This document shows, piece by piece, positions 3,461 through 55,099 of a DNA stretch of 64,000 nucleotides. The notes beneath the pieces were generated by a model. The model worked only from the letters and a program-made list of their open reading frames with translations. It was not told the origin of the DNA and did not search any database. A program made the position numbers and the translations under genes. Every line of letters begins with the position of its first letter. The first letter of the stretch is position 1. This stretch comes from Variovorax terrae (GTDB lineage Bacteria; Pseudomonadota; Gammaproteobacteria; Burkholderiales; Burkholderiaceae_C), in the NCBI RefSeq assembly GCF_022809125.1, contig NZ_JALGBI010000001.1, forward strand, positions 682,001-746,000. The letters are read 5' to 3'.

Positions 3461-3464
<4 letters not shown>
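1098..3464 (-). CDS. xdhB: Xanthine dehydrogenase, molybdenum-binding subunit
   Basis: A 788-residue large subunit of bacterial xanthine dehydrogenase, which oxidises hypoxanthine to xanthine and xanthine to urate at a molybdopterin centre. The N-terminal a/b-hammerhead domain includes GSATYVDDIPE. The Mo-domain contains FRGFGGPQ, and the C-terminal KAVGEPPFMLA holds the conserved catalytic Glu. The start MNMRDKEF was chosen because its ATG overlaps the xdhA stop by 4 bp (ATGA), the usual coupling of these subunits. An in-frame extension further upstream runs antisense-like through xdhA and was rejected. Length matches the family. No xdhC (cofactor-insertion chaperone) follows; a repeat and a convergent gene do. 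Confidence 0.96.
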
Positions 3465-4981
<1,517 letters not shown>

Positions 4982-5059
4982 GGATCTATGGGTGTTCCGT
5001 CTGCCATGGTCTGGCGTTGCCAAGAGGGTAAGGCGGGAGACCGCACCTTTTCATAAGCG

Positions 5060-28110: not shown

Positions 28111-28201
28111 GTGGCCCCAACCAGTGCCACCGCGGAACCGGCTTTGCCGGGCCGCTGGTGGCGCCCCCTTGAGGGGGAGGCGCCGCAGGCGCTTCGGGGG
28201 T
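28111..28201. repeat. GC-rich intergenic repeat, family B, copy 2
   Basis: Shares GCCACCGCGGAACCGGCTTT, GCCGGGCCGCTGGTGGCGCC, the C5/G5 dyad and GGCGCCGCAGGCGCTTCGGG with the copies at 1014 and 41722. It begins after the fbp start region and ends six bases before the pepN stop codon, so it lies in the transcript between pepN and fbp. Confidence 0.87.
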
Positions 28202-28206
28202 GCATC

Positions 28207-30897
28207 TTATTCAGCTAGTGCGCGAGTGACCACCTCGCGCACGTCGTTGCTCAGATCGGTCTTGGCGGCCACGCGGGCAATCGCCTCGCGCGCCGCATGG
28301 CGGTAGGGCTCGGCCAGTTTCTTCCAGCGGTCCAGCGCGCGGGCCAGGCGTGCGGCCACCTGCGGGTTGAGGGCATCGAGCTCGATCACGCGCTCGCTCC
28401 AGAACACGTAGCCTGCGGCGTCGGTGCGGTGGAAGGCGCCGGGGTTGGCGTTGCAGTAGCTGAAGATCACGCTGCGCGCGCGGTTGGGGTTGCGCAGGTT
28501 GAAGTCAGGGTGGGCCATCAGCTGGCGCACGGCGGGCAGCACGTTGCCGCCGCGGTCGGGCGCGCCGGCCTGCAGGGCGAACCACTTGTCGAGCACCAGC
28601 GCCTCGTCCTTGAACAGCGCGTGGAAGCGGGGCAGGGCCTGCGCTGCCAGCGAGTGGCCGCTGGACACCAGCGCCGACAGCGCGTTGAAGCGGTCGGTCA
28701 TGTTGCCGGCGTCCTTGAAGCGCTGGTAGGCCTTGCCGGGCCAGACGGTGTCGCCGCTCTGGCGCGCCACCAGGCACAGCTGCGTGAGCGCCAGGCCGGC
28801 CAGGGCGCGCCGTCCCGACGAGACCGGGTCGGGCTGGTAGCCGCCGGTGTCGCGGTGCGTCTCGTAGGCCCATTGCCAGTCGTCGGCCAGGGCGTGGGCG
28901 AGCTGCTCGCGCATGGCCTCGCGCACCGCGTGGATGCGCTGCGGATCGACCACGTCGAGCTGCTCGGCGATGTAGGTCTCGGCCGGCAGGGTCAGCACCA
29001 GCTCCTTGAACGCGGCGTCCAGCGTGGGATGGCGCAGCACCCCGCGCATGGCCTCGATGAAGGCCTCATCCAGCGCCAAGGTCCGCGTCCCCTGGTTATC
29101 TTCTGCTATGTATTTGATAGCGCGGTTGAGCGCCAGGCGCTGTCCGGCCTCCCAGCGGTTGAACGGGTCGCTGTCGTGCGCCAGCAGCGTGAGCAGCTGG
29201 GCGTCGGTGTAGCCGCCGTCCAGGATCACCGGGGCGCTGAAGCCGCGCAGGATCGAGGGCACGGGCTCGGCATCGATGTTCTGGAAGGTCAGCGTCTCGC
29301 TCGCCTGCGTCACCACGAAGGTGCGGTGGCCGGGCACCGGCGCCGCCTCGGTGGCCAGCTGCAGCGGCAGCTCGCGGCCGTCGGGCGCCAGCAGGCCCAG
29401 GCCCATGGGGATGACGAACGGCTCCTTGTGGGGCTGGCCCGGCGTGGGCGGGCAGCTCTGCGCCAGCGTGAGCGTGTAGGTGCGCGCCGCGGCGTCGTAG
29501 TGGCCGCTGGCCTGCAGGCGCGGCGTGCCGGCCTGGCTGTACCAGCGCTTGAACTGCGGCAGCAGCACGGCCAGCGCCGAGCCGGGGTTGGCGTCGGCGA
29601 TCGCCTGGGCGAAGTCGTCGCAGGTCACGGCGTGGCCGTCGTGGCGCTCGAAGTACAGGCTCATGCCCTTGGTGAAGCCCTCGCGGCCCACCAGGGTCTG
29701 CATCATGCGCACCACCTCGGCGCCTTTTTCGTAGACGGTGACGGTGTAGAAGTTGTTGATCTCGATGTACTGGTCGGGCCGCACCGGGTGCGCCATCGGG
29801 CCGGCGTCCTCGGGGAACTGAGCGGTGCGCAGCACGCGCACGTCCTCGATGCGCTTGACGGCGCGCGCCGAGGGCTCGCCCGCCAGGTCCTGGCTGAACT
29901 CCTGGTCGCGGAAGACCGTGAGGCCTTCCTTCAGCGAGAGCTGGAACCAGTCGCGGCAGGTCACGCGGTTGCCGGTCCAGTTGTGGAAGTACTCGTGGCC
30001 GACCACGCTCTCGATGTTGGCGTAGTCGGTGTCGGTGGCTGTGGCGGCGTTGGCCAGCACGTACTTGGTGTTGAAGATGTTCAGGCCCTTGTTCTCCATG
30101 GCGCCCATGTTGAAGTCGCTGGTGGCGACGATCATGAAGCGCTCCAGGTCGAGCGAGAGGCCGAAGCGGGCCTCGTCCCAGGCGACCGAGTGCATCAGCG
30201 AGTTCATCGCGTGCTCGGTCTTGTCGAGGTCGCCCGGGCGCACGAACACCTGCAGCAGGTGCTCCTTGCCGGCGCGCGAGGTGATGCGCTGCTCGCGCGC
30301 CACCAACTGGCCGGCCACCAGCGCGAACAGGTAGCTCGGCTTGCGGTGCGGGTCCACCCATTTGGCGAAATGCCGGCCGTCATCAAGCGCGCCCTGGTCC
30401 ACCAGGTTGCCGTTGGACAGCAGCACCGGGTAGCGCGCCTTGTCGGCGCGCAGCGTCACGCTGTAGCTGGCCATCACGTCGGGGCGATCCAGGAAGTAGG
30501 TGATGCGGCGAAAGCCCTCGGCCTCGCACTGGGTGAAGAAGGAGTCGTTGCTGACGTACAGGCCCATCAGCTTGCTGTTCTTGGCCGGGCAGCAGGTGGT
30601 GAAGATCTCGAGCTCGAACGGCTCGTGACCGTCGGGCAGGTTCTCCAGCACGAGGTGGCCGCCGTCGAGCTTGAACGAGGTGCCCTGGCCGTTCACCAGC
30701 ACGCGCGCCAGGTTGAGCTCCTCGCCGTCCAGGCGCAGGGCCTGGGTCGCCACGTCGGGGTTGCGCCGCAGCTTCATGCGGTTGAGCACGCGGGTCTTGG
30801 CGGGGTCGAGGTCGAACGTCAGGTCGACCGTATCGATCCAGAAGGCGGGCGCGGTGTAGTCCTCGCGGCGGATCACAGGGGCTTGTCCTTCACGCAT
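28207..30897 (-). CDS. pepN: Aminopeptidase N
   Basis: An 896-residue M1-family zinc aminopeptidase. The substrate-binding GAMEN is at 265-269, HEYFHNWTGNR at 301-311 supplies the zinc ligands and catalytic Glu302, and Glu324 (SLKEGL) is the third ligand. A C-terminal helical domain follows. At about residues 593-608 (KYIAEDNQGTRTLALD) the protein is encoded by a dyad repeat otherwise found between genes; the frame stays open and the site lies in the C-terminal region, away from the active site. Its start overlaps the end of the HAD phosphatase gene by 8 bp, so the two are translationally coupled. Confidence 0.96.
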   Translation of the reverse strand: MREGQAPVIRREDYTAPAFWIDTVDLTFDLDPAKTRVLNRMKLRRNPDVATQALRLDGEELNLARVLVNGQGTSFKLDGGHLVLENLPDGHEPFELEIFTTCCPAKNSKLMGLYVSNDSFFTQCEAEGFRRITYFLDRPDVMASYSVTLRADKARYPVLLSNGNLVDQGALDDGRHFAKWVDPHRKPSYLFALVAGQLVAREQRITSRAGKEHLLQVFVRPGDLDKTEHAMNSLMHSVAWDEARFGLSLDLERFMIVATSDFNMGAMENKGLNIFNTKYVLANAATATDTDYANIESVVGHEYFHNWTGNRVTCRDWFQLSLKEGLTVFRDQEFSQDLAGEPSARAVKRIEDVRVLRTAQFPEDAGPMAHPVRPDQYIEINNFYTVTVYEKGAEVVRMMQTLVGREGFTKGMSLYFERHDGHAVTCDDFAQAIADANPGSALAVLLPQFKRWYSQAGTPRLQASGHYDAAARTYTLTLAQSCPPTPGQPHKEPFVIPMGLGLLAPDGRELPLQLATEAAPVPGHRTFVVTQASETLTFQNIDAEPVPSILRGFSAPVILDGGYTDAQLLTLLAHDSDPFNRWEAGQRLALNRAIKYIAEDNQGTRTLALDEAFIEAMRGVLRHPTLDAAFKELVLTLPAETYIAEQLDVVDPQRIHAVREAMREQLAHALADDWQWAYETHRDTGGYQPDPVSSGRRALAGLALTQLCLVARQSGDTVWPGKAYQRFKDAGNMTDRFNALSALVSSGHSLAAQALPRFHALFKDEALVLDKWFALQAGAPDRGGNVLPAVRQLMAHPDFNLRNPNRARSVIFSYCNANPGAFHRTDAAGYVFWSERVIELDALNPQVAARLARALDRWKKLAEPYRHAAREAIARVAAKTDLSNDVREVVTRALAE
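29075..29121. repeat. Short dyad repeat, family A, inside pepN (in frame)
   Basis: Contains GCCAAGGTCCGCGTCCCC, TGGTTATC and GCTATGTATTTGATAGC, matching the GCTATCAAA...ATAGC arm and the GCGGAC(C/A)T arm of the other copies. About 47 bp, translated as part of PepN. Confidence 0.72.
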
Positions 30898-32777: not shown

Positions 32778-34439
<1,662 letters not shown>

Positions 34440-34558
34440 GACTGTCTCCTGAAGTCGTCAATCGAACGAATGACTCAATCAAAAACAGCAAAACCCGTGT
34501 GTCCGCACCCGGCTCGCGGCGGGGCTTTTTCAGGACCTGGCCCAGTATCCTGCGAAAC

Positions 34559-34581
34559 GCGCCGCCTTGCACGGGCGGCGC
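34559..34581. terminator. Perfect 8-bp GC hairpin downstream of the alpha/beta hydrolase
   Basis: GCGCCGCC/GGCGGCGC around a 7-nt loop, with GTTTCG after it on the minus strand. No real T-run, so it is a weak candidate terminator for the hydrolase gene. Confidence 0.4.
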
Positions 34582-34613
34582 GCGACGACATCGCAGGCCC
34601 CGTGAACAAGTTC

Positions 34614-35522
34614 TCAGGCCGCGTCGAGAAACCCTTCGAGCAGGCGGGCCAGCGCCTGCGGCTGGTCATGGTGCAGCATGTGGCCCGCGTCCTCGATCAG
34701 GGCGCGGCGCAGGTCGGGCACGGCGGCCAGGCGCTCGTGGAATTCGGCCAGCGAGTACTTGCCCTGCCACCACTGGTCGAGGCTGTTGTCGGAGGCCTCC
34801 ACCACCAGCGTGGGCGCGCTGATGCGGCGGTACAGCTCGAGCACTTCGTCCACCCGGAACAGCTGGGCGTTGACGATCTTGTGCGCCGCATCGCCCAGGA
34901 TCTCCCACTGGCCGCCGGCGTTGGGCCGGGCCCAGTGCCCGGCCAGCCAGTCGGCCTGGTCCTGCTTCAGGCGCGGGTTGGTCTTCATGAGGCGGCGCGC
35001 CACGCCGTCGGGCCCGTCGTAGGCCTTGAGCGCCATCTCGCCACGGTGCAGGCTCTTGAGCTCGTCGATCCAGCGCGCATAGCGCCCCGGCGCCTGCGCC
35101 GGCCGGGTGGCGGGCATGCCGAAGCCCTCGAGGTTGACCAGCCGGCGGATGCGCTCGGGCCGCACGCCGGCATAGAACATCACCACGTTGCCGCCCATGC
35201 TGTGGCCCACCAGGTCGACCGGCTGGCTGCCGGCGTAGTGGTCGAGCAGGAAGTCGAGGTCGGCCAGGTAGTCGGGGAACCAGTAGTTGTCGGTGGGGCT
35301 GCCTGCGGTCAGGCCGTAGCCGCGCCAGTCGGGCGCGATCACGTGGCGGTCGTGGCTCAGCGCATCCACCACGAACTGGTAGGAAGCCGCCACGTCCATC
35401 CAGCCGTGCACCAGGACCAGGGGCGCCTGGCCCGGCACGGGCTCGCCCCAGAGACGCACGTGGTAATCGAGGTGACGAATCGGGACAAATTCGCTGCGGG
35501 AAACTCGTTGGACTTGGTACAT
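34614..35522 (-). CDS. Alpha/beta-fold hydrolase
   Basis: A 302-residue serine hydrolase. The oxyanion-region motif is LVHGWMD, the nucleophile is Ser108 in VGHSMGG, and the histidine is in IEDAGHMLHHDQP near the C-terminus. An acid residue likely lies in the LVVEASDNSLD segment. Resembles esterases or epoxide-hydrolase-like members; substrate unknown. Its start is 25 bp from the divergent acyl-CoA synthetase start, so one promoter must lie inside the opposite gene, or the true start is further in. The N-terminus before RHLDYHVRLWG is not conserved-looking. Confidence 0.87.
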   Translation of the reverse strand: MYQVQRVSRSEFVPIRHLDYHVRLWGEPVPGQAPLVLVHGWMDVAASYQFVVDALSHDRHVIAPDWRGYGLTAGSPTDNYWFPDYLADLDFLLDHYAGSQPVDLVGHSMGGNVVMFYAGVRPERIRRLVNLEGFGMPATRPAQAPGRYARWIDELKSLHRGEMALKAYDGPDGVARRLMKTNPRLKQDQADWLAGHWARPNAGGQWEILGDAAHKIVNAQLFRVDEVLELYRRISAPTLVVEASDNSLDQWWQGKYSLAEFHERLAAVPDLRRALIEDAGHMLHHDQPQALARLLEGFLDAA

Positions 35523-35547
35523 TCAATCCATCATAAGGAGAGCCGGC

Positions 35548-37479
35548 ATGGGCGTCAGTCAAGTCAAGGACAGCCACTCGGCGCTGCACGGCGGCTTCCG
35601 CTGGCAGGTGCCCGAGACCTTCAACATCGCGCAGGTCTGCTGCACGCGCTGGGCCGAGCAGCCAGATGCTACAAAAAGAATAGCTGTTGAGCACCACGTG
35701 GCGCGGACCTCTGGCCCTTCTTATTCATTTTTTGCGTTGCAGGAGGCCGCCAACCGCCTGAGCAACCTGCTGCAGGCGCTGGGCGTCGCGCGCGGCGACC
35801 GCGTGGCCATCGTGATGCCGCAGCGCTTCGAGACGGCGGTGGCCTACATGGCGGTGTTCCAGCTCGGCGCGGTGGCGATGCCGCTGTCCATGCTGTTCGG
35901 GCCCGAGGCGCTGGAATACCGGCTGCACGACAGCGGCGCCGTGGTGGCCGTGTGCGACGAAAGCGCCATCGACAGCCTGCTGGCCGTGCGCGCGCGCTGC
36001 CCGGCGCTGCGCAAGCTCATCGGCGTGGGCGAAGCGGCCGAGCGCGCCGACCTCGAGTACGAGCTGATGGCGGCCCTGCAACTGCCGCGCTTCACCGCCG
36101 TCGACACCCGGGCCGACGAAGGCGCGGTGCTCATCTACACCAGCGGCACCACCGGCCCGCCCAAGGGTGCGCTGCTCCCGCACCGCGCGCTGATCGGCAA
36201 CCTGCCGGGCTTCGTCTGCAGCCAGAACTGGTTTGGGTTCGACCCGCAAGCCAGGGCCCAGGCTCCCGCCCCCGTGCGGGGGCGGGCGGGGGGAGGGGGC
36301 GGGCGCGGCAAGGGCAACGCCCAGTCCGCCGGGGACCGGAACACGGCCGTGTTCTGGTCCCCGGCGGACTGGGCCTGGACCGGCGGCCTGATGGACGCCC
36401 TGCTGCCCAGCCTCTACTTCGGCCGCCCCATCGTCGCCTTCAGCGGCCGCTTCAGCCCCGAGGCGGCGTTCACGCTGATGCAGCAGCACGGCGTGACCCA
36501 CACCTTCCTGTTTCCCACCGCGCTCAAGGCCATGATGAAGGCCTGCCCCGAGCCGCGGCGGCACTACCGGCTGCGGCTGCAGGCCATCATGAGCGCGGGC
36601 GAGGCCGTGGGCGACGCGGTGTTCGCCTACTGCCAGGAGCAGCTCGGCGTGACCGTCAACGAGATGTTCGGCCAGACCGAGATCAACTACATCGTCGGCA
36701 ACTGCGCCATGGAATGGGCCCCCACGCTCCCCGCTTCGCGCGGTTCGCTGCCCCCCGAGGGGGCCCAACCCGCCTTGGGGCGGCCCGGCGGCGGGTTGCC
36801 GGCGCGCCGCGCCGGCCCCGTTGGCTGGCCCGCGCGCCCCGGCAGCATGGGCCGGCCCTACCCGGGCCACCGCGTTGCCGTGATCGACGAGGAAGGCCGC
36901 GAGTGCCCCGTGGGTGTGCCCGGCGACGTGGCGCTGCACCGCTTCGACGTGCACGGCGAGCCCGACCCGATCTTCTTCCTCGGCTACTGGAACAACGACA
37001 CGGCCACGCGCAACAAATTCACCGGCGACTGGTGCCGCACCGGCGACATGGCCGTGCGCGACGCCGACGGCTACCTCTGGTACCAGGGCCGCGCCGACGA
37101 CGTGTTCAAGGCCGCCGGCTACCGCATCGGGCCCGGCGAGATCGAGAACTGCCTGGTCAAGCACCCGGCCGTGGCCAACGCCGCCGTGGTGCCCAAGCCC
37201 GACCGCGAGCGCGGTGCCGTGGTCAAGGCCTACGTCGTGCTTGCTCCTGATTTCATAGCTAGAAATGACCAGGTGATGGGGACCTCTGGCCAATTTGAAG
37301 CCAAACTCGTGGCCGAACTGCAGGCCCACGTCAAGGGCCGGCTCGCGCCCTACGAATACCCCAAGGAGATCGAGTTCATCGACGCCCTGCCCATGACCAC
37401 CACCGGCAAGGTGCAGCGCCGCGTGCTGCGGCTGCAGGAAGAGGAGCGCGCCCGCGCCGCGGCGCCCGCCAGGCCATGA
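35548..37479 (+). CDS. Acyl-CoA synthetase (AMP-forming) carrying several repeat-derived in-frame insertions
   Basis: A 643-residue AMP-binding enzyme activating a carboxylic acid to its CoA thioester. The core motifs are intact: LIYTSGTTGPPKGA (P-loop), FWSPADWAWTGG, MSAGEAVGDAVF, NEMFGQTEINYIVGN, TGDMAVRDADGYLWYQGRADDVFK, the hinge GYRIGPGEIE and the C-terminal catalytic Lys in PMTTTGKVQRR. Four extra segments interrupt it: about residues 40-63 and 565-584 (dyad repeats), 232-266 (G-rich block plus palindrome) and 390-433 (GC-rich element). Without them the length would approach the usual 530-560. The frame remains open through all four. AAGGAG precedes the ATG. Whether the product is active is uncertain. 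Confidence 0.88.
   Translation: MGVSQVKDSHSALHGGFRWQVPETFNIAQVCCTRWAEQPDATKRIAVEHHVARTSGPSYSFFALQEAANRLSNLLQALGVARGDRVAIVMPQRFETAVAYMAVFQLGAVAMPLSMLFGPEALEYRLHDSGAVVAVCDESAIDSLLAVRARCPALRKLIGVGEAAERADLEYELMAALQLPRFTAVDTRADEGAVLIYTSGTTGPPKGALLPHRALIGNLPGFVCSQNWFGFDPQARAQAPAPVRGRAGGGGGRGKGNAQSAGDRNTAVFWSPADWAWTGGLMDALLPSLYFGRPIVAFSGRFSPEAAFTLMQQHGVTHTFLFPTALKAMMKACPEPRRHYRLRLQAIMSAGEAVGDAVFAYCQEQLGVTVNEMFGQTEINYIVGNCAMEWAPTLPASRGSLPPEGAQPALGRPGGGLPARRAGPVGWPARPGSMGRPYPGHRVAVIDEEGRECPVGVPGDVALHRFDVHGEPDPIFFLGYWNNDTATRNKFTGDWCRTGDMAVRDADGYLWYQGRADDVFKAAGYRIGPGEIENCLVKHPAVANAAVVPKPDRERGAVVKAYVVLAPDFIARNDQVMGTSGQFEAKLVAELQAHVKGRLAPYEYPKEIEFIDALPMTTTGKVQRRVLRLQEEERARAAAPARP
35667..35734. repeat. Short dyad repeat, family A, inside the acyl-CoA synthetase (first copy)
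   Basis: GCTACAAAAAGAATAGCTG, then GCGCGGACCTCTGGCCC, then a T-rich end TTATTCATTTTTTGC. In frame, encoding roughly KRIAVEHHVARTSGPSYS. The T-rich tail stands out against the surrounding GC-rich codons. Confidence 0.85.
36243..36318. repeat. G-rich in-frame segment with a 10-bp hairpin
   Basis: Holds CCCGCCCCCG-TG-CGGGGGCGGG (36265-36286), a perfect hairpin, followed by runs of G and GCGGCAAGGGCAA. It encodes a low-complexity stretch rich in Ala, Arg and Gly (RAGGGGGRGKG) that the enzyme family lacks. Confidence 0.65.
36319..36374. repeat. 56-bp near-perfect palindrome
   Basis: Left arm 36319-36346 and right arm 36347-36374 are reverse complements with a single mismatched pair. The right arm encodes the conserved AVFWSPADWA motif; the left arm encodes QSAGDRNT, which is not family-like. 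The left arm therefore looks like an inverted copy of the right arm. Confidence 0.9.
36718..36846. repeat. GC-rich in-frame insertion in the acyl-CoA synthetase
   Basis: Starts GCCCCCACGCTCCCCGCTTC, includes a CCCCCCGAGGGGG dyad and GGCGGCCCGGCGGCGGGTT. It separates NCAMEW from PARPGSMGRPYPGH, which are normally adjacent in this family. TGG(G)CCC occurs at both edges, as if the target was duplicated. From memory, similar blocks occur between genes in Comamonadaceae. Confidence 0.7.
37243..37298. repeat. Short dyad repeat, family A, inside the acyl-CoA synthetase (second copy)
   Basis: GCTCCTGATTTCATAGCTAG, AAATGACC, then GGGGACCTCTGGCCAATTTG. In frame, encoding about APDFIARNDQVMGTSGQF. Near-identical in layout to the intergenic copy at 51621-51680. 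Confidence 0.85.
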
Positions 37480-37537
37480 ATCGCCGGGCCGCTCCTGCGC
37501 GAACGCCGCGCGCGGCCCGCGAGGCGGGAGTTTCTCC

Positions 37538-39094
37538 ATGAACACTACCGGCGCGCCCATCGAACTCGAACTCAAGCTGGCCGTGCGGCCGCAGGACGCC
37601 GACCGGCTGGCGGCGCATCCCCTGATCGCGCGCCATGCCGGCGGCGCGGCGCAGACGCAGCTCATGCTCGCGCATTACCTGGACACGCCCGAGCGCGCGC
37701 TGGCCGCGGCCGGCATGGCGCTGCGCCTGCGGCGCGAGGGCCGCCAATGGCGGCAGACCCTCAAGACTTCGGGCGGCGAGGCGCTGGCGCTGCGCGCGCG
37801 TGGCGAGTGGGAGCACGCTCTGCCCGCCGCGCGGCTGGACTGGGCGGCGCTGCGGCGCACCCCGCTGGCCGCGCTGCCGGCCTACGCCGGGCGCGCCGGC
37901 TGGAAGGCCCTGGCCGCGGACCTGAAGCCCGTGTTCACCACCCGCTTCCAGCGGCGCAACTGGGCGCTGGCGCTGCCCGGCGGAACGCAGGCCGTGCTGA
38001 GCCTGGACCAGGGCCACATCGCCTGCGGCCGCGGCGCGCGCCGCCGCACGGTGCCGATCTGCGAGCTGGAGCTCGAATGCCAGGCCGGCGACCCGGCGCG
38101 GCTCTGGAAATTCGCGGCCGAACTCGCCAAAGAGTGGCCGCTGATCCCGCTGGCGGCGAGCAAGGCCGAGCGCGGGCACGAGCTGGCGGCGCAGGCCCGG
38201 CCCGCGCCGCACAAGGGCAAGCCCCCCAAGCTGGCGCGCACCGGCGGCGTGCCCCAGGCGCTGGCCGCCGCGCTCGGCGCGCCACTGGCCGCGCTGCAGC
38301 ACAACCTGCGGCATCTGGACGCGGCCGACCCCGAGTTCGTGCACCAGGCGCGGGTGGCGCTGCGCCGGCTGCGCTCGGTGCTGCGCGCCTTCGGGCCGCT
38401 GCCCGGCCTCAAGGGGCTGGGCCGGCCGATCACCGGCCTGGACGCCCCCTTGCGCGCGCTCGGCCAGGTGCTGGGCGCGGCGCGCGATGCCGATGTCTTT
38501 GAACTGCAGACGCTGCCGGCCTGGCGCGAAGCCCTGCCCGCGGCCCTGGCCGGCGAGCTCGACCGCCTTGCGCCGCAGGCCGCGCAGGTGCGCCGCGAGA
38601 CCCAGGCCGCCGCCGCCGCGCTGGCGGCCTCGGCCGCCTATGGGCAGACGCTGCTGCGCGCCGAGCGGCTGGTGTTCGACGCCGCGGCGGCGCCGCACGG
38701 CGGCGGCGCGCTGGAGCCCCTGGCCCGGCGCCTGCTCGGCGCAAGCCATGAGCGCGTGTGGCGCGCGGCGCGCGGCCTGACGCGGCTGACGGCCGCGCAG
38801 CGGCACCGCCTGCGCATCGACGTCAAGCGCCTGCGCTACGGGCTCGACCTCTGGTCGTCGCTGTGGCCCGAGGCCGCGACGCGGCCCTACCGGCAGGCGC
38901 TGGCCGGGCTGCAGGACGAGCTGGGCGCCCTCAACGACGCGGCGGTGGCCGGCCAGACGCTGGCCGCGCTCGGCGCCTCTGCCGCGCTGCGCAAGGCCTG
39001 TGCCGCGCGCGAACGCAGCCTGCTGGCGCAGCGGCTGCCGCTGGCGGCCCAGACCCTGGCCGCGCTGGACCTGTGCGCCGCGCCCTGGCGCTGA
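37538..39094 (+). CDS. CYTH-CHAD domain protein (putative inorganic triphosphatase)
   Basis: 518 residues. The N-terminal CYTH domain (residues 1 to about 200) opens with the ExExK motif (Glu9, Glu11, Lys13 in IELELKL) and continues LRLRREGRQWRQTLKT. The C-terminal CHAD domain (about 240-510) shows conserved histidines in FVHQARVALRRLRSVLRAF and HRLRIDVKRLRYGLDLW. The architecture matches E. coli YgiF, a triphosphatase, and CHAD domains that bind polyphosphate. Follows the acyl-CoA synthetase by 58 bp. Confidence 0.9.
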   Translation: MNTTGAPIELELKLAVRPQDADRLAAHPLIARHAGGAAQTQLMLAHYLDTPERALAAAGMALRLRREGRQWRQTLKTSGGEALALRARGEWEHALPAARLDWAALRRTPLAALPAYAGRAGWKALAADLKPVFTTRFQRRNWALALPGGTQAVLSLDQGHIACGRGARRRTVPICELELECQAGDPARLWKFAAELAKEWPLIPLAASKAERGHELAAQARPAPHKGKPPKLARTGGVPQALAAALGAPLAALQHNLRHLDAADPEFVHQARVALRRLRSVLRAFGPLPGLKGLGRPITGLDAPLRALGQVLGAARDADVFELQTLPAWREALPAALAGELDRLAPQAAQVRRETQAAAAALAASAAYGQTLLRAERLVFDAAAAPHGGGALEPLARRLLGASHERVWRAARGLTRLTAAQRHRLRIDVKRLRYGLDLWSSLWPEAATRPYRQALAGLQDELGALNDAAVAGQTLAALGASAALRKACAARERSLLAQRLPLAAQTLAALDLCAAPWR

Positions 39095-39175
39095 GCCCAT
39101 GTCCCACTTGAGATCCGACCGCGCGAGACAGATTCACCCCTCCCTTCATCCACTCACTCCTTCATGAGGCAGGCC

Positions 39176-39823
39176 ATGACGCAACTCCGAGTCCAGAGCT
39201 TTACGGTTTCCATCGATGGCTACGGTGCCGGGCCGAACCAGGATCTCCAGAATCCGCTCGGCGTGAGAGGGCCCGAGCTGATGGAGTGGCTCTTCCACAC
39301 GCGCCTGTGGAGCCAGATGCATGGGCAAGGCGATGGCGAGACCGGGGTCGACAACGCGATGGCGGAAAAAGGCTTTGCCGGCGTGGGCGCCTGGATCCTG
39401 GGGCGCAACATGTTCGGCCCCATCCGGGGCCCGTGGCCGGACGACCACTGGAAGGGCTGGTGGGGTGAGGAGCCGCCGTACCACACGCCCGTGTTCGTGC
39501 TGACGCACCATCCGCGCCCCTCGCTGGCCATGGCGGGCGGCACGGAGTTCCACTTCGTCACCGGGGGCATCCATGCCGCGCTCGCGCAGGCCACCGCGGC
39601 GGCGAACGGCCGCGATGTGCGCCTTGGCGGCGGCGTGTCCACCATCCGCCAGTACGTGCGCGCCGGCCTGGTCGATGAACTGCATCTGGCCGTTCGGCCG
39701 GTCTGGCTCGGCACCGGCGAGTCGCTGTGGGAAGGCCTGGACATGCGGGCCCTGGGCTATGAGTGCACGGACTGCGTGGCCGGCGAGCGCGCGACCCACG
39801 TGTTCCTGCGCAAGCAGGCTTGA
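39176..39823 (+). CDS. Dihydrofolate reductase family protein (RibD C-terminal-like)
   Basis: 215 residues of the RibD C-terminal/DHFR-like reductase fold. Typical pieces are VQSFTVSIDGYGAG, GAWILGRNMFGP, VFVLTHHPRP, and the NADPH-binding DVRLGGGVSTIRQYVRAGLVDELHL near the C-terminus. These stand-alone proteins are of unknown substrate. The start at 39176 is preferred because GAGG lies six bases before it; an ATG four codons earlier lacks this. Confidence 0.85.
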   Translation: MTQLRVQSFTVSIDGYGAGPNQDLQNPLGVRGPELMEWLFHTRLWSQMHGQGDGETGVDNAMAEKGFAGVGAWILGRNMFGPIRGPWPDDHWKGWWGEEPPYHTPVFVLTHHPRPSLAMAGGTEFHFVTGGIHAALAQATAAANGRDVRLGGGVSTIRQYVRAGLVDELHLAVRPVWLGTGESLWEGLDMRALGYECTDCVAGERATHVFLRKQA

Positions 39824-51723: not shown

Positions 51724-52452
51724 TCAGCGCCAGTGGCGGTAGCCGCCGCGGCCGCCATAGCCGCCGTAGTAGCCGAAGTTGAAGGACAGGCCCACGGGCG
51801 GGTAGTAGTAGGGCGCCGCCGAGTAGACCACGGGCGCCTGGTACACCACCGGGGGCTGCACGTAGGTGGTGGGCTGCACGTAGGTGGTGGGCTGCACGTA
51901 GGCCGGCTGCGGCGCATAGCCTGGCTGCACCAGGGTGTCGGCGGTCGGCGCCTGTACCGGCGGCTGGTCCGGGGCGACCGCGCCCACCGGCGTGACCTGC
52001 AGGCGCACATAGGCGCCGGGGTCTTGCGGCATCTGCACGCTGTACTGCTTGCCCGCGTATTCATAGACCACGTTGTAGGCCGTGGTGCGGTTCTCGTAGA
52101 AGGTCTGCGTCGTGCATTGCTGCACGTTCTGCACCTGGGTGCCGCCGCCTTCCACGTTGTTGCCCAGTAGCGCGCCGCCGATCATGCCCAGCATGGTGGC
52201 TGCTGCACGGCCGCCGCCCTGGCCCACGGCATTGCCCATGGCGCCGCCGGCGATCGCGCCGATGGCCGCGCCGGCGCCCGTCTTGGGCGCCTGGGTGACG
52301 ACCTGGCCGTTGTTGCAGACCTGGCGCGGCACCGCCACCTGCTGGATCACGGGCGTGCTGGAAATCACGCGGCCCATTTCCTGGGCGCTGGCGCCCGTGG
52401 CCACGCCGCCCAGGCCGGCGAGAACGGTGGTGATCAGGATGGTTTTCTTCAT
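51724..52452 (-). CDS. Glycine-zipper 2TM outer-membrane-type protein
   Basis: 242 residues. Signal peptide ending near TGASAQ, a glycine-zipper block (AGAAIGAIAGGAMGNAVGQGGGRAAATMLGMIGGALLGN) of the rickettsial 17-kDa antigen type, then a domain with YNVVYEYAGKQYSVQMPQDPG. The C-terminus is low complexity: tandem YVQPTT repeats and a Tyr/Gly-rich end. Probably anchored in the outer membrane; function unknown. The start at MKKTILI follows a good signal-peptide N-terminus. Confidence 0.83.
   Translation of the reverse strand: MKKTILITTVLAGLGGVATGASAQEMGRVISSTPVIQQVAVPRQVCNNGQVVTQAPKTGAGAAIGAIAGGAMGNAVGQGGGRAAATMLGMIGGALLGNNVEGGGTQVQNVQQCTTQTFYENRTTAYNVVYEYAGKQYSVQMPQDPGAYVRLQVTPVGAVAPDQPPVQAPTADTLVQPGYAPQPAYVQPTTYVQPTTYVQPPVVYQAPVVYSAAPYYYPPVGLSFNFGYYGGYGGRGGYRHWR
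51853..51900. repeat. 18-bp tandem repeat in the glycine-zipper gene
   Basis: The unit GGCTGCACGTAGGTGGTG occurs twice perfectly and about two-thirds of a third time; it encodes YVQPTT on the minus strand. Copy number could vary by slippage. Confidence 0.85.
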
Positions 52453-54295: not shown

Positions 54296-54316
54296 GTCCA
54301 CACCAGACCACGCTTC

Positions 54317-55099
54317 ATGGCTTTCTTCAAGTTCCGCAAAGGTGGCAACGATCAGGCTGCCGCCCCCAGCCAGCCCGAAAGCATTGAGGCCATGCGCCGG
54401 CGTGCCAAGCACCGGCTGATCGGTGCGGCGGTGCTGGTGCTGCTGGGCGTGGTCGGGTTCCCGATGCTGTTCGACACGCAGCCCCGGCCGATCCCGGTGG
54501 ACATCCCGATCGAGATCCCCGACAAGGGCAAGGTCAAGCCGCTGGCGATTCCCGTTGCGCCGCCCCCGGTGGCCGCCGTCGCGCCACCGCCGGCCCGCAC
54601 CGCTTCGGCCGGCACGCCCGCGTCCAGCATTCCGGCCACGGCCAGCCTCAGCGCCAAGGAAGAGGTGGTGACGGCGAAGGCGGAGCCAAAAACAGAGCCA
54701 AAAGTGGCAGAGGTCCCTGTCGCACCGACATCTCCTGCTATCAAAAAAGAAGCAAAGCCGGAGCCCCGGCCCGAGCCCAAACCGGCCCCGAAGGCCGACG
54801 ACGGCGCCAAGGCGAAGGCCCTGCTCGAAGGCCGGGACGTCGAGAAGGCGGCCGGCGCCGACAAGGCCGAGGGCCGCTTCGTGGTGCAGGTGGGCGCGTT
54901 CGCCGACGTGGCCAAGGCGCGCGAGACCCGGCTCAAGGTGGAGAAATCGGGCCTGAAGACCTACACCCAGGTGGCGGACACCAAGGACGGCAAGCGCATC
55001 CGTGTGCGCGTGGGGCCGTTTGCCAGCAAGGCCGAGGCCGACAAGGCCGCCAGCAAGATCAAGGGGCTGGATTTACCGGCCGCGATCCTCACCTTGTAG
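54317..55099 (+). CDS. dedD: SPOR-domain cell-division protein, DedD-like
   Basis: 260 residues. Cytoplasmic N-terminus, one membrane helix (HRLIGAAVLVLLGVVGFPMLF, followed by DTQPRPIPVDIPI), a long Pro/Ala/Lys linker, and a C-terminal SPOR domain (GRFVVQVGAFADVAKARETRLKVE) that binds denuded septal peptidoglycan. Residues of about 123-146 in the linker are encoded by a family A dyad repeat, in frame; the linker should tolerate it. Position between folC and cvpA supports DedD identity. Confidence 0.9.
   Translation: MAFFKFRKGGNDQAAAPSQPESIEAMRRRAKHRLIGAAVLVLLGVVGFPMLFDTQPRPIPVDIPIEIPDKGKVKPLAIPVAPPPVAAVAPPPARTASAGTPASSIPATASLSAKEEVVTAKAEPKTEPKVAEVPVAPTSPAIKKEAKPEPRPEPKPAPKADDGAKAKALLEGRDVEKAAGADKAEGRFVVQVGAFADVAKARETRLKVEKSGLKTYTQVADTKDGKRIRVRVGPFASKAEADKAASKIKGLDLPAAILTL
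54683..54753. repeat. Short dyad repeat, family A, inside the SPOR protein gene (in frame)
   Basis: GAGCCAAAAACAGAGCCAAA, GGCAGAGGTCCCTGTCGC, GACATCTCCTGCTATCAAAA, AAGAAGC. A diverged copy with A-rich stretches unlike its surroundings; translated in the Pro/Lys-rich linker. Confidence 0.7.

Follow-up and report, generated by a model that had tools for sequence, protein, structure and literature searches.

Dispersed palindromic repeats lie in frame within an acyl-CoA synthetase gene of Variovorax terrae, probably retained by selection for an open reading frame

Within the 64,000-nucleotide stretch of Variovorax terrae DNA analysed here (the window), a single intact open reading frame of 643 aa, acs (35548-37479, + strand), contains four element-derived or element-like segments, designated sites A to D in order. 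The gene encodes an acyl-CoA (acetyl-CoA-like) synthetase. We consider it very probable that dispersed palindromic repeats insert widely, that selection keeps those in-frame copies that loops tolerate, and that a mirror arm of native code at site B probably arose via hairpin template switching. An earlier reading of the same DNA, made from sequence only, had proposed that the gene was interrupted by four repeat-type segments absent from its family, and had left two causes side by side, selection for the frame or a mechanism that places elements in multiples of three at loops.

The identification of acs is based on the open reading frame list, Pfam domains, an alignment to the solved protein 5u2a and an alignment of 200 sequences. 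The AMP-binding domain (PF00501; 200.2 bits against a Pfam cut-off of 29.9) and the AMP-binding_C domain (PF13193; 76 bits against 24.5) were both detected in the open frame, in line with the sequence-only reading, and by this domain content we take the product to be a member of the ANL superfamily. Among the best 25 of 107 NCBIfam matches, no named model reached its cut-off, the top model, NF003313, scoring 336.5 bits against a cut-off of 729, and the product is therefore called an acyl/acetyl-CoA synthetase only. The nearest named homologues are from Ramlibacter and other Comamonadaceae. Matches at E<=1e-100 were found in 15 of the 60 genomes searched, counting the 4.93-Mb genome that contains the window, and in 0 of 24 genomes from other families of the order. 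No Rfam family reached its gathering score in 34000-39500.

The best solved homologue of the product is 5u2a, and its alignment to the acs product breaks at aa 217-259, opposite about 8 residues in 5u2a, and at aa 386-426, opposite about 5. A further 12 residues near aa 567-585 have no counterpart in 5u2a, which is also about 5 residues shorter at site A. As placed by alignment to solved proteins, the segments at B and C appear to lie in loops. A further alignment joined the acs product to 80 orthologous loci and to 119 proteins from databases, a set of 200 that was assembled by similarity to the acs product and is not a random sample. In this alignment, site B is 26-29 residues long in 91 proteins and 31-99 in the remainder, and site C is 20 residues long in 57, 27-29 in 61 and 31-133 in 82, with 57 aa in the window gene. 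At site D, 146 of the 200 proteins have the length of the window gene and 19 are 12 residues shorter, and its 34-residue spacing at site A is found in 142. Based on these lengths, B and C are variable insertion sites carrying true in-frame insertions in the window gene, site D looks like an old insertion, and site A is foreign-looking sequence with little or no gain in length. An insert at C is also present in Ramlibacter tataouinensis (P0010). The claim that all four segments are absent from the family therefore survives in part: B and C are insertions, and D exceeds both 5u2a and the 19 shorter proteins, but the length at D is the common one among orthologues, A brings no unusual length, and at B and C many orthologues have inserts of their own, often different ones.

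Site B (36241-36345, + strand; about aa 232-266) is an in-frame insert recognised both from the lengths in the 200-protein alignment and from a similar core that is dispersed in two of five other genomes. It appears to consist of a REP-like GC-rich core (about 36262-36305, with ends set by eye) followed by an inverted copy of downstream native codons. When the own genome was searched with B, the matches besides itself and its own native arm were weak, the best having an E of 8.6e-4. For B1 and B2, two types of insert found at this site, the B1 query gave 39 matches in the L014 genome and 13 in the L019 genome, most of them due to the first ~38 bases of the query, and 2, 2 and 3 in three other genomes, and B2 gave 70, 36 and 87 in three genomes; the acs copies are included in these figures, and palindromes are counted on each strand.

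Across the window gene and the 80 loci, site B is empty in 52, holds B1 in 15, B2 in 3 and another insert in 11, and site C holds the forward element in 7, the reverse element in 10, both in 1 and neither in 63, these states being assigned by peptide patterns, with some rows misplaced (for example, P0002 stands in 'other' and resembles B1). A third repeat type is found at B in two more proteins, and a fourth, by motif, in L179, L180 and L182. A tree built without the sites has weak resolution, with 15 of its 78 inner branches starred and 31 open. On this tree, the state of B changes at least 20 times (shuffled mean 27.1, minimum 23) and that of C at least 15 times (shuffled mean 17.4, minimum 14). 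Since the 20 changes at B fall below the shuffled minimum, its pattern partly reflects inheritance, whereas C hardly follows the tree. The search for gap-free relatives suggested by the sequence-only reading was successful, as close relatives with empty B and C sites were found: filled and empty genes can be compared at the DNA level for L021 versus L080, L029 and L061 and for L015 versus L082, as well as at C for L036 versus L060 and L068 and at B for L022 and L026 versus L025 and L042. Tandem copies also occur in orthologues, such as four in P0073 and three in L046. Compared across these sequences, B and C behave as hotspots, which in relatives are either empty or occupied by differing repeats of either orientation, at times arranged in tandem.

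The 3' part of the B insert and the adjacent native codons form a 28-bp inverted repeat that has no loop and is matched at 27 of 28 positions (36319-36374, + strand). Its left arm (36319-36346) belongs to the insert, and its right arm (36347-36374) is mostly native code for AVFWSPADWA. Of 94 loci given to a survey of this mirror arm, two (L019 and L183) were not located and were dropped, leaving 92, with at least 45 nt upstream in 35 and less in 57. The mirror arm was found in 19 of the 92, with own scores of 13-25, compared to 9 or less for the other 16 inserted loci and 10 or less for the 57 short ones. Two pairs of stretches are identical (L176/L030 and L177/L055), and the 19 loci were consequently counted as 17 distinct ones. 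Among the 35 loci, the same ones reach a score of 13 when any species' arm is used, indicating that the choice among these 35 did not favour the own partner. Summed over the 17 loci, insert arms scored 318 against their own native arms, whereas 20,000 reassignments, in which kinship was ignored, averaged 256.7 and reached 301 at most. The own partner ranked first in 9 of 17 loci, alone in 6 of them, and 8th in L018 and L028. The fit of an arm to its own partner is thus general, but not universal.

Individual codons show the same correspondence. Where the window gene and L030 differ synonymously, the arms mirror the difference, and the arm of L180, whose insert is of another kind, likewise matches a Ser codon belonging to the other type. 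L059 has a Leu codon in place of the native Phe codon, in agreement with its insert arm; L006 and L055 share this insert-arm triplet but retain Phe in the native code. It would seem that the arms were either remade in several lineages or have been copying each other, and both point to hairpin template switching. A fuller account of site B, which we offer tentatively and rate as possible rather than probable, is that a REP lands in the loop, a hairpin template switch writes a mirror of ~28 native bases, and the arms then stay matched through mutual exchange, by which changes in the insert could be carried over into the native code.

Alternatively, the inserts could be kept for a hairpin role at the RNA or DNA level, such as translational pausing between subdomains or mRNA stability. 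The predicted RNA fold of B (36255-36378) is better than all 200 shuffles (z -6.9), and the tendency of the B arms to match their own partner across species would also suit such a role, but template switching alone can yield this matching. Moreover, the folds of C (z -0.6), A (z 0.5) and D (z 1.0) are no better than those of shuffles, which makes structure unlikely as a general reason for the inserts, and the inserts are missing in close relatives. We therefore regard a hairpin role as unlikely.

Site C contains a 78-bp dispersed element (36717-36794, + strand), read as APTLPASRGSLPPEGAQPALGRPGGG, that lies within the in-frame insert at about aa 387-426 of the product and is supported by matches in the own genome, by the occurrence of its peptide in other proteins and by the spacing in the 200-protein alignment. 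A search of the own genome returned 44 matches, comprising the element itself, 33 others at E<0.002 with 72-92% identity, and weaker ones; with 40 of 121 candidates scored, there are at least 33 further matches. Element C is a genome-wide repeat of this bacterium. The earlier description of B and C as GC-rich repeat-type elements accordingly holds for C, but for B it is incomplete, as part of that insert is native code in inverted form.

Thirty C loci were classified with a codon model: 9, counting acs, were in frame within genes, conserved housekeeping genes among them, 13 had one coding flank and 8 had none. NCBIfam names above cut-off were obtained for C-bearing genes encoding HrpA, acetoacetate-CoA ligase, RecG, RecQ, Fmt and a copper-type ATPase; a C-bearing RND permease received a name below cut-off only, and the L101 protein with a C element had no NCBIfam name at E 1e-60. 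When aligned to solved proteins, the C insert splits near-adjacent residues in RecG, Fmt, RecQ, the copper-type ATPase and the acetoacetate-CoA ligase. We also observed three C elements in tandem, ~81-82 nt apart (L095, L096 and L098; G000:C1:3129361-3129601).

A database search with the C stretch alone found 320 proteins at E<=10, with several acs orthologues among the best 120 of the 320. In 109 of 110 further proteins from these best 120, the C peptide lies at least 30 residues from both ends. Among the matches listed, the named proteins holding the C peptide come from Comamonadaceae, and the names include valine-tRNA ligase, a GlnE-type adenylyl enzyme, cobyric acid synthase, threonine synthase and glycerol kinase. 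Going by Pfam accessions, other C-peptide proteins are presumably a DNA ligase and XdhA, the xanthine dehydrogenase small subunit, and we take further ones to be MurE-like, a topoisomerase and a biotin carboxylase. The reverse-orientation stretch of the RND permease, used as a query, found 45 proteins, RND permeases first, followed by weaker matches in other architectures. The C-type insert of this permease (L090, P0232-P0248) is common to many other RND permeases, and some inserts therefore look old.

The C copies also bear on how the frame is kept. The 26 near-full matches range from 67 to 91 nt and are exactly 78 nt in 6 cases. With the six frames taken one at a time, 21-25 of the 26 are open, the frame labels being approximate because of indels. 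Of the nine in-frame copies, that in acs is read forward and the other eight in reverse; at the element centre, six of the eight use one reverse frame and two another. In 6 of the 9, the frame switches within the element via indels and the copy is still read through. This use of frames fits selection for an open overall frame, and there may be room for a preference in orientation or frame, nine copies being too few to settle it.

The other cause left standing by the sequence-only reading is a dedicated mechanism whose insertions at loops would have lengths divisible by three; a variant of it would favour one frame. All nine intragenic copies are open through the element, although this is partly so by definition under the codon-model criterion, and both the predominance of one reverse frame outside acs and the six matches of exactly 78 nt could be taken in its favour. 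Against this, the near-full matches vary in length from 67 to 91 nt, most in-frame copies switch frame internally, two reverse frames and one forward frame are in use, and 21 of the 30 C loci were not called in-frame, as expected if many are intergenic. We consider such a mechanism very improbable. That the surviving copies are in frame is sufficiently accounted for by selection for a working enzyme, and triplet counting need not be invoked.

Sites A and D belong to a second repeat. A covariance model, R1, was built from seven copies of a dyad repeat outside acs, with A and D left out of the model. R1 nevertheless finds both site A (35654-35727, + strand; a dyad copy GCTAC..ATAGC, then ..GGACCTCTGGCC, in an in-frame reading) at 40.1 bits and E 4e-10, and site D (37229-37302, + strand), a second in-frame copy, at 41.5 bits and E 1.6e-10, confirming the proposal that two of the segments match a dyad found between genes elsewhere in the window. 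The 11 strong R1 matches in the window comprise the seven model copies, A, D and two new ones, and in the own genome 150 hits were scored of 1770 candidates, the weakest having an E of 1.5e-8. The dyad is a genome-wide repeat of this bacterium, and chance is excluded for A, C and D.

Read against gene calls, 5 of the 11 window dyad hits are in frame within genes, namely xdhA, pepN, acs (two) and a gene for a SPOR-like protein. The codon classifier itself called in-frame only xdhA 4335-4408 and pepN 29062-29135 among these five, and it overlooked A and D of acs, with one flank outside the gene or with a stop. By the same classifier, 3 of 30 dyad loci fetched are in frame within a gene, 4 lie between genes on different strands, 2 have an internal stop, 14 have one coding flank and 7 have none. 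Ahead of its in-frame dyad, the product of xdhA (xanthine dehydrogenase small subunit; 3464-5050, - strand) also has a stretch, read as HVAPTLGASCASAPP, that looks like a truncated C element. The pepN copy lies in frame in the gene for aminopeptidase N, and another copy (54694-54767) is in frame within a Lys/Pro-rich linker of ORF 54296-55096, whose protein we take to be SPOR-like from its appearance. In the hrpA gene of the own genome (L088, L175), a C element in reverse orientation and a copy of the dyad are both in frame. A gene that collects several elements, as acs has collected four, is thus less exceptional than it first appeared.

Whether A and D descend from an ancestor common to other genera is a separate matter. 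Segments common to genera, which the sequence-only reading had counted as evidence against itself, are what we appear to see for D and, by motif, for A, whereas the repeat type at B and C differs between relatives. For A and D, this common ancestry is suggested by motif resemblance and mostly weak matches. The presence of the same dyad in other genera is not proven, because R1 finds just 2 sites at E<0.1 in the 80 other orthologue loci, a pattern search of the 80 loci outside acs gave 16 dyad-like places compared to 16.0 in whole-locus shuffles, and the 12, 17, 11 and 21 matches of the L013 D segment in four genomes, the acs copy counted, are mostly weak.

The segments might instead be ordinary GC-rich loop expansions produced by slippage and without any tie to mobile repeats, as could be argued from the several B and C inserts that match no recognised repeat (class 'other'). 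We hold this to be highly unlikely, given that dispersed copies exist for C, for the dyad and, in some other genomes, for B1 and B2; for A, C and D of acs, slippage is contradicted by such copies. The notion that acs is a decaying pseudogene under relaxed constraint, for which four foreign-looking segments in one ORF might speak, is scarcely credible when long invariant blocks are preserved over 50 aligned sequences, acs of the window counted, and the frame is open from match start to stop in 80 of 80 orthologue loci (563-682 aa), although these loci are the best 80 of 586 and broken genes may therefore be absent from the set. Triplet counting, a pseudogene and plain slippage were all rejected on this evidence. 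On sequence grounds, acs is an intact and probably working acyl-CoA synthetase, and selection for the frame, the first of the two causes originally proposed, is supported both by the open orthologues and by the C copies that switch frame yet are read through.

In the preferred reading of dispersed repeats filtered by selection, elements would insert fairly freely, and selection would remove most copies that break the frame or the folded core. In-frame copies in tolerant loops would persist, decay and sometimes amplify in tandem. At B, a second process would be at work, in which hairpin template switching probably copies neighbouring native codons in inverted form and helps to keep the arms matched. 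Some observations run counter to this reading. The B core is not clearly dispersed in the own genome, the B1 query has just 2-3 matches in three of the five other genomes, and the predominance of one orientation and one frame among the in-frame C copies (8 of 9 and six of eight, respectively) is not predicted by plain random insertion; with so few copies, this skew may be due to chance. As for a mobilising enzyme, the genome has one Y1 transposase match (Y1_Tnp, PF01797), with no element beside it, and in its 3.3-kb locus, examined for the arrangement of a RAYT-mobilised REP, there is no match longer than 12 nt to C, the dyad or B.

Protein-coding repeats are best known from Rickettsia. The Rickettsia palindromic elements (RPEs) are described, in the portions of PMC10969869 and PMC3733652 consulted, as dispersed palindromic repeats found in frame in unrelated genes. 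The elements of acs, and C in particular, seem to behave alike in being dispersed palindromic repeats in frame within unrelated conserved genes, the comparison being one of behaviour and not of sequence, and the parallel with RPEs drawn in the sequence-only reading is apt. Unlike RPEs, the window elements belong to another lineage, C and B are GC-rich, and different repeats occupy the same two sites across species. Passages of PMC3733652 also report GTAG/CGTC REPs within genes, many of them for DNA synthesis and repair, as well as grouped intragenic REPs that encode up to 82 aa and a site in recB that, at roughly one position, is occupied by unlike REPs in two species of Xanthomonas. The window repeats resemble these in lying within genes and in differing at one site, a likeness again in behaviour that does not assign them to that class. 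Comamonad, Acidovorax, Delftia and Polaromonas are absent from the main text of PMC3733652, and its section on intragenic REPs, in the part consulted, makes no mention of a mirror arm of native code such as that in acs.

Template switching is described in parts of PMC8794818 and PMC8604942 as making or homogenising the arms of inverted repeats, with coding sequence also affected. Unlike those cases, acs site B would join template switching to repeat insertion, in a bacterium, with one arm being native enzyme code. In Nematomorpha mitochondria, inverted repeats occur within protein-coding genes whose function is kept, according to parts of PMC6649704; there, both arms encode conserved regions, whereas acs site B pairs a native arm with an insert arm. 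Titles and the first lines of abstracts in the open-access literature gave no account of these repeats in Comamonadaceae proteins, and a text search of PMC12306157 gave nothing on such repeats. As far as these searches show, what is new is the lineage, the elements, how many kinds of repeat share one pair of sites, and an arm that is based on native code.

These observations suggest a similar habit in larger environmental genomes, in which closely related filled and empty genes exist, so that what an inserted peptide costs, where it comes from and how it folds are directly testable. That repeats of different kinds end up at one pair of sites gives an indication of how strictly insertions are filtered by protein structure, and the mirror arm, if made by template switching, would be a natural record of arm-to-arm copying in coding DNA. 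In practice, family models fail over such inserts, and alignments and trees can be led astray by them. Elsewhere in the window, we noted a pair of 63-nt repeats with 89% identity (1004-1066 and 28113-28175), possibly another dispersed repeat family, and, at 51853-51919, short direct repeats in three copies with 18 nt spacing.
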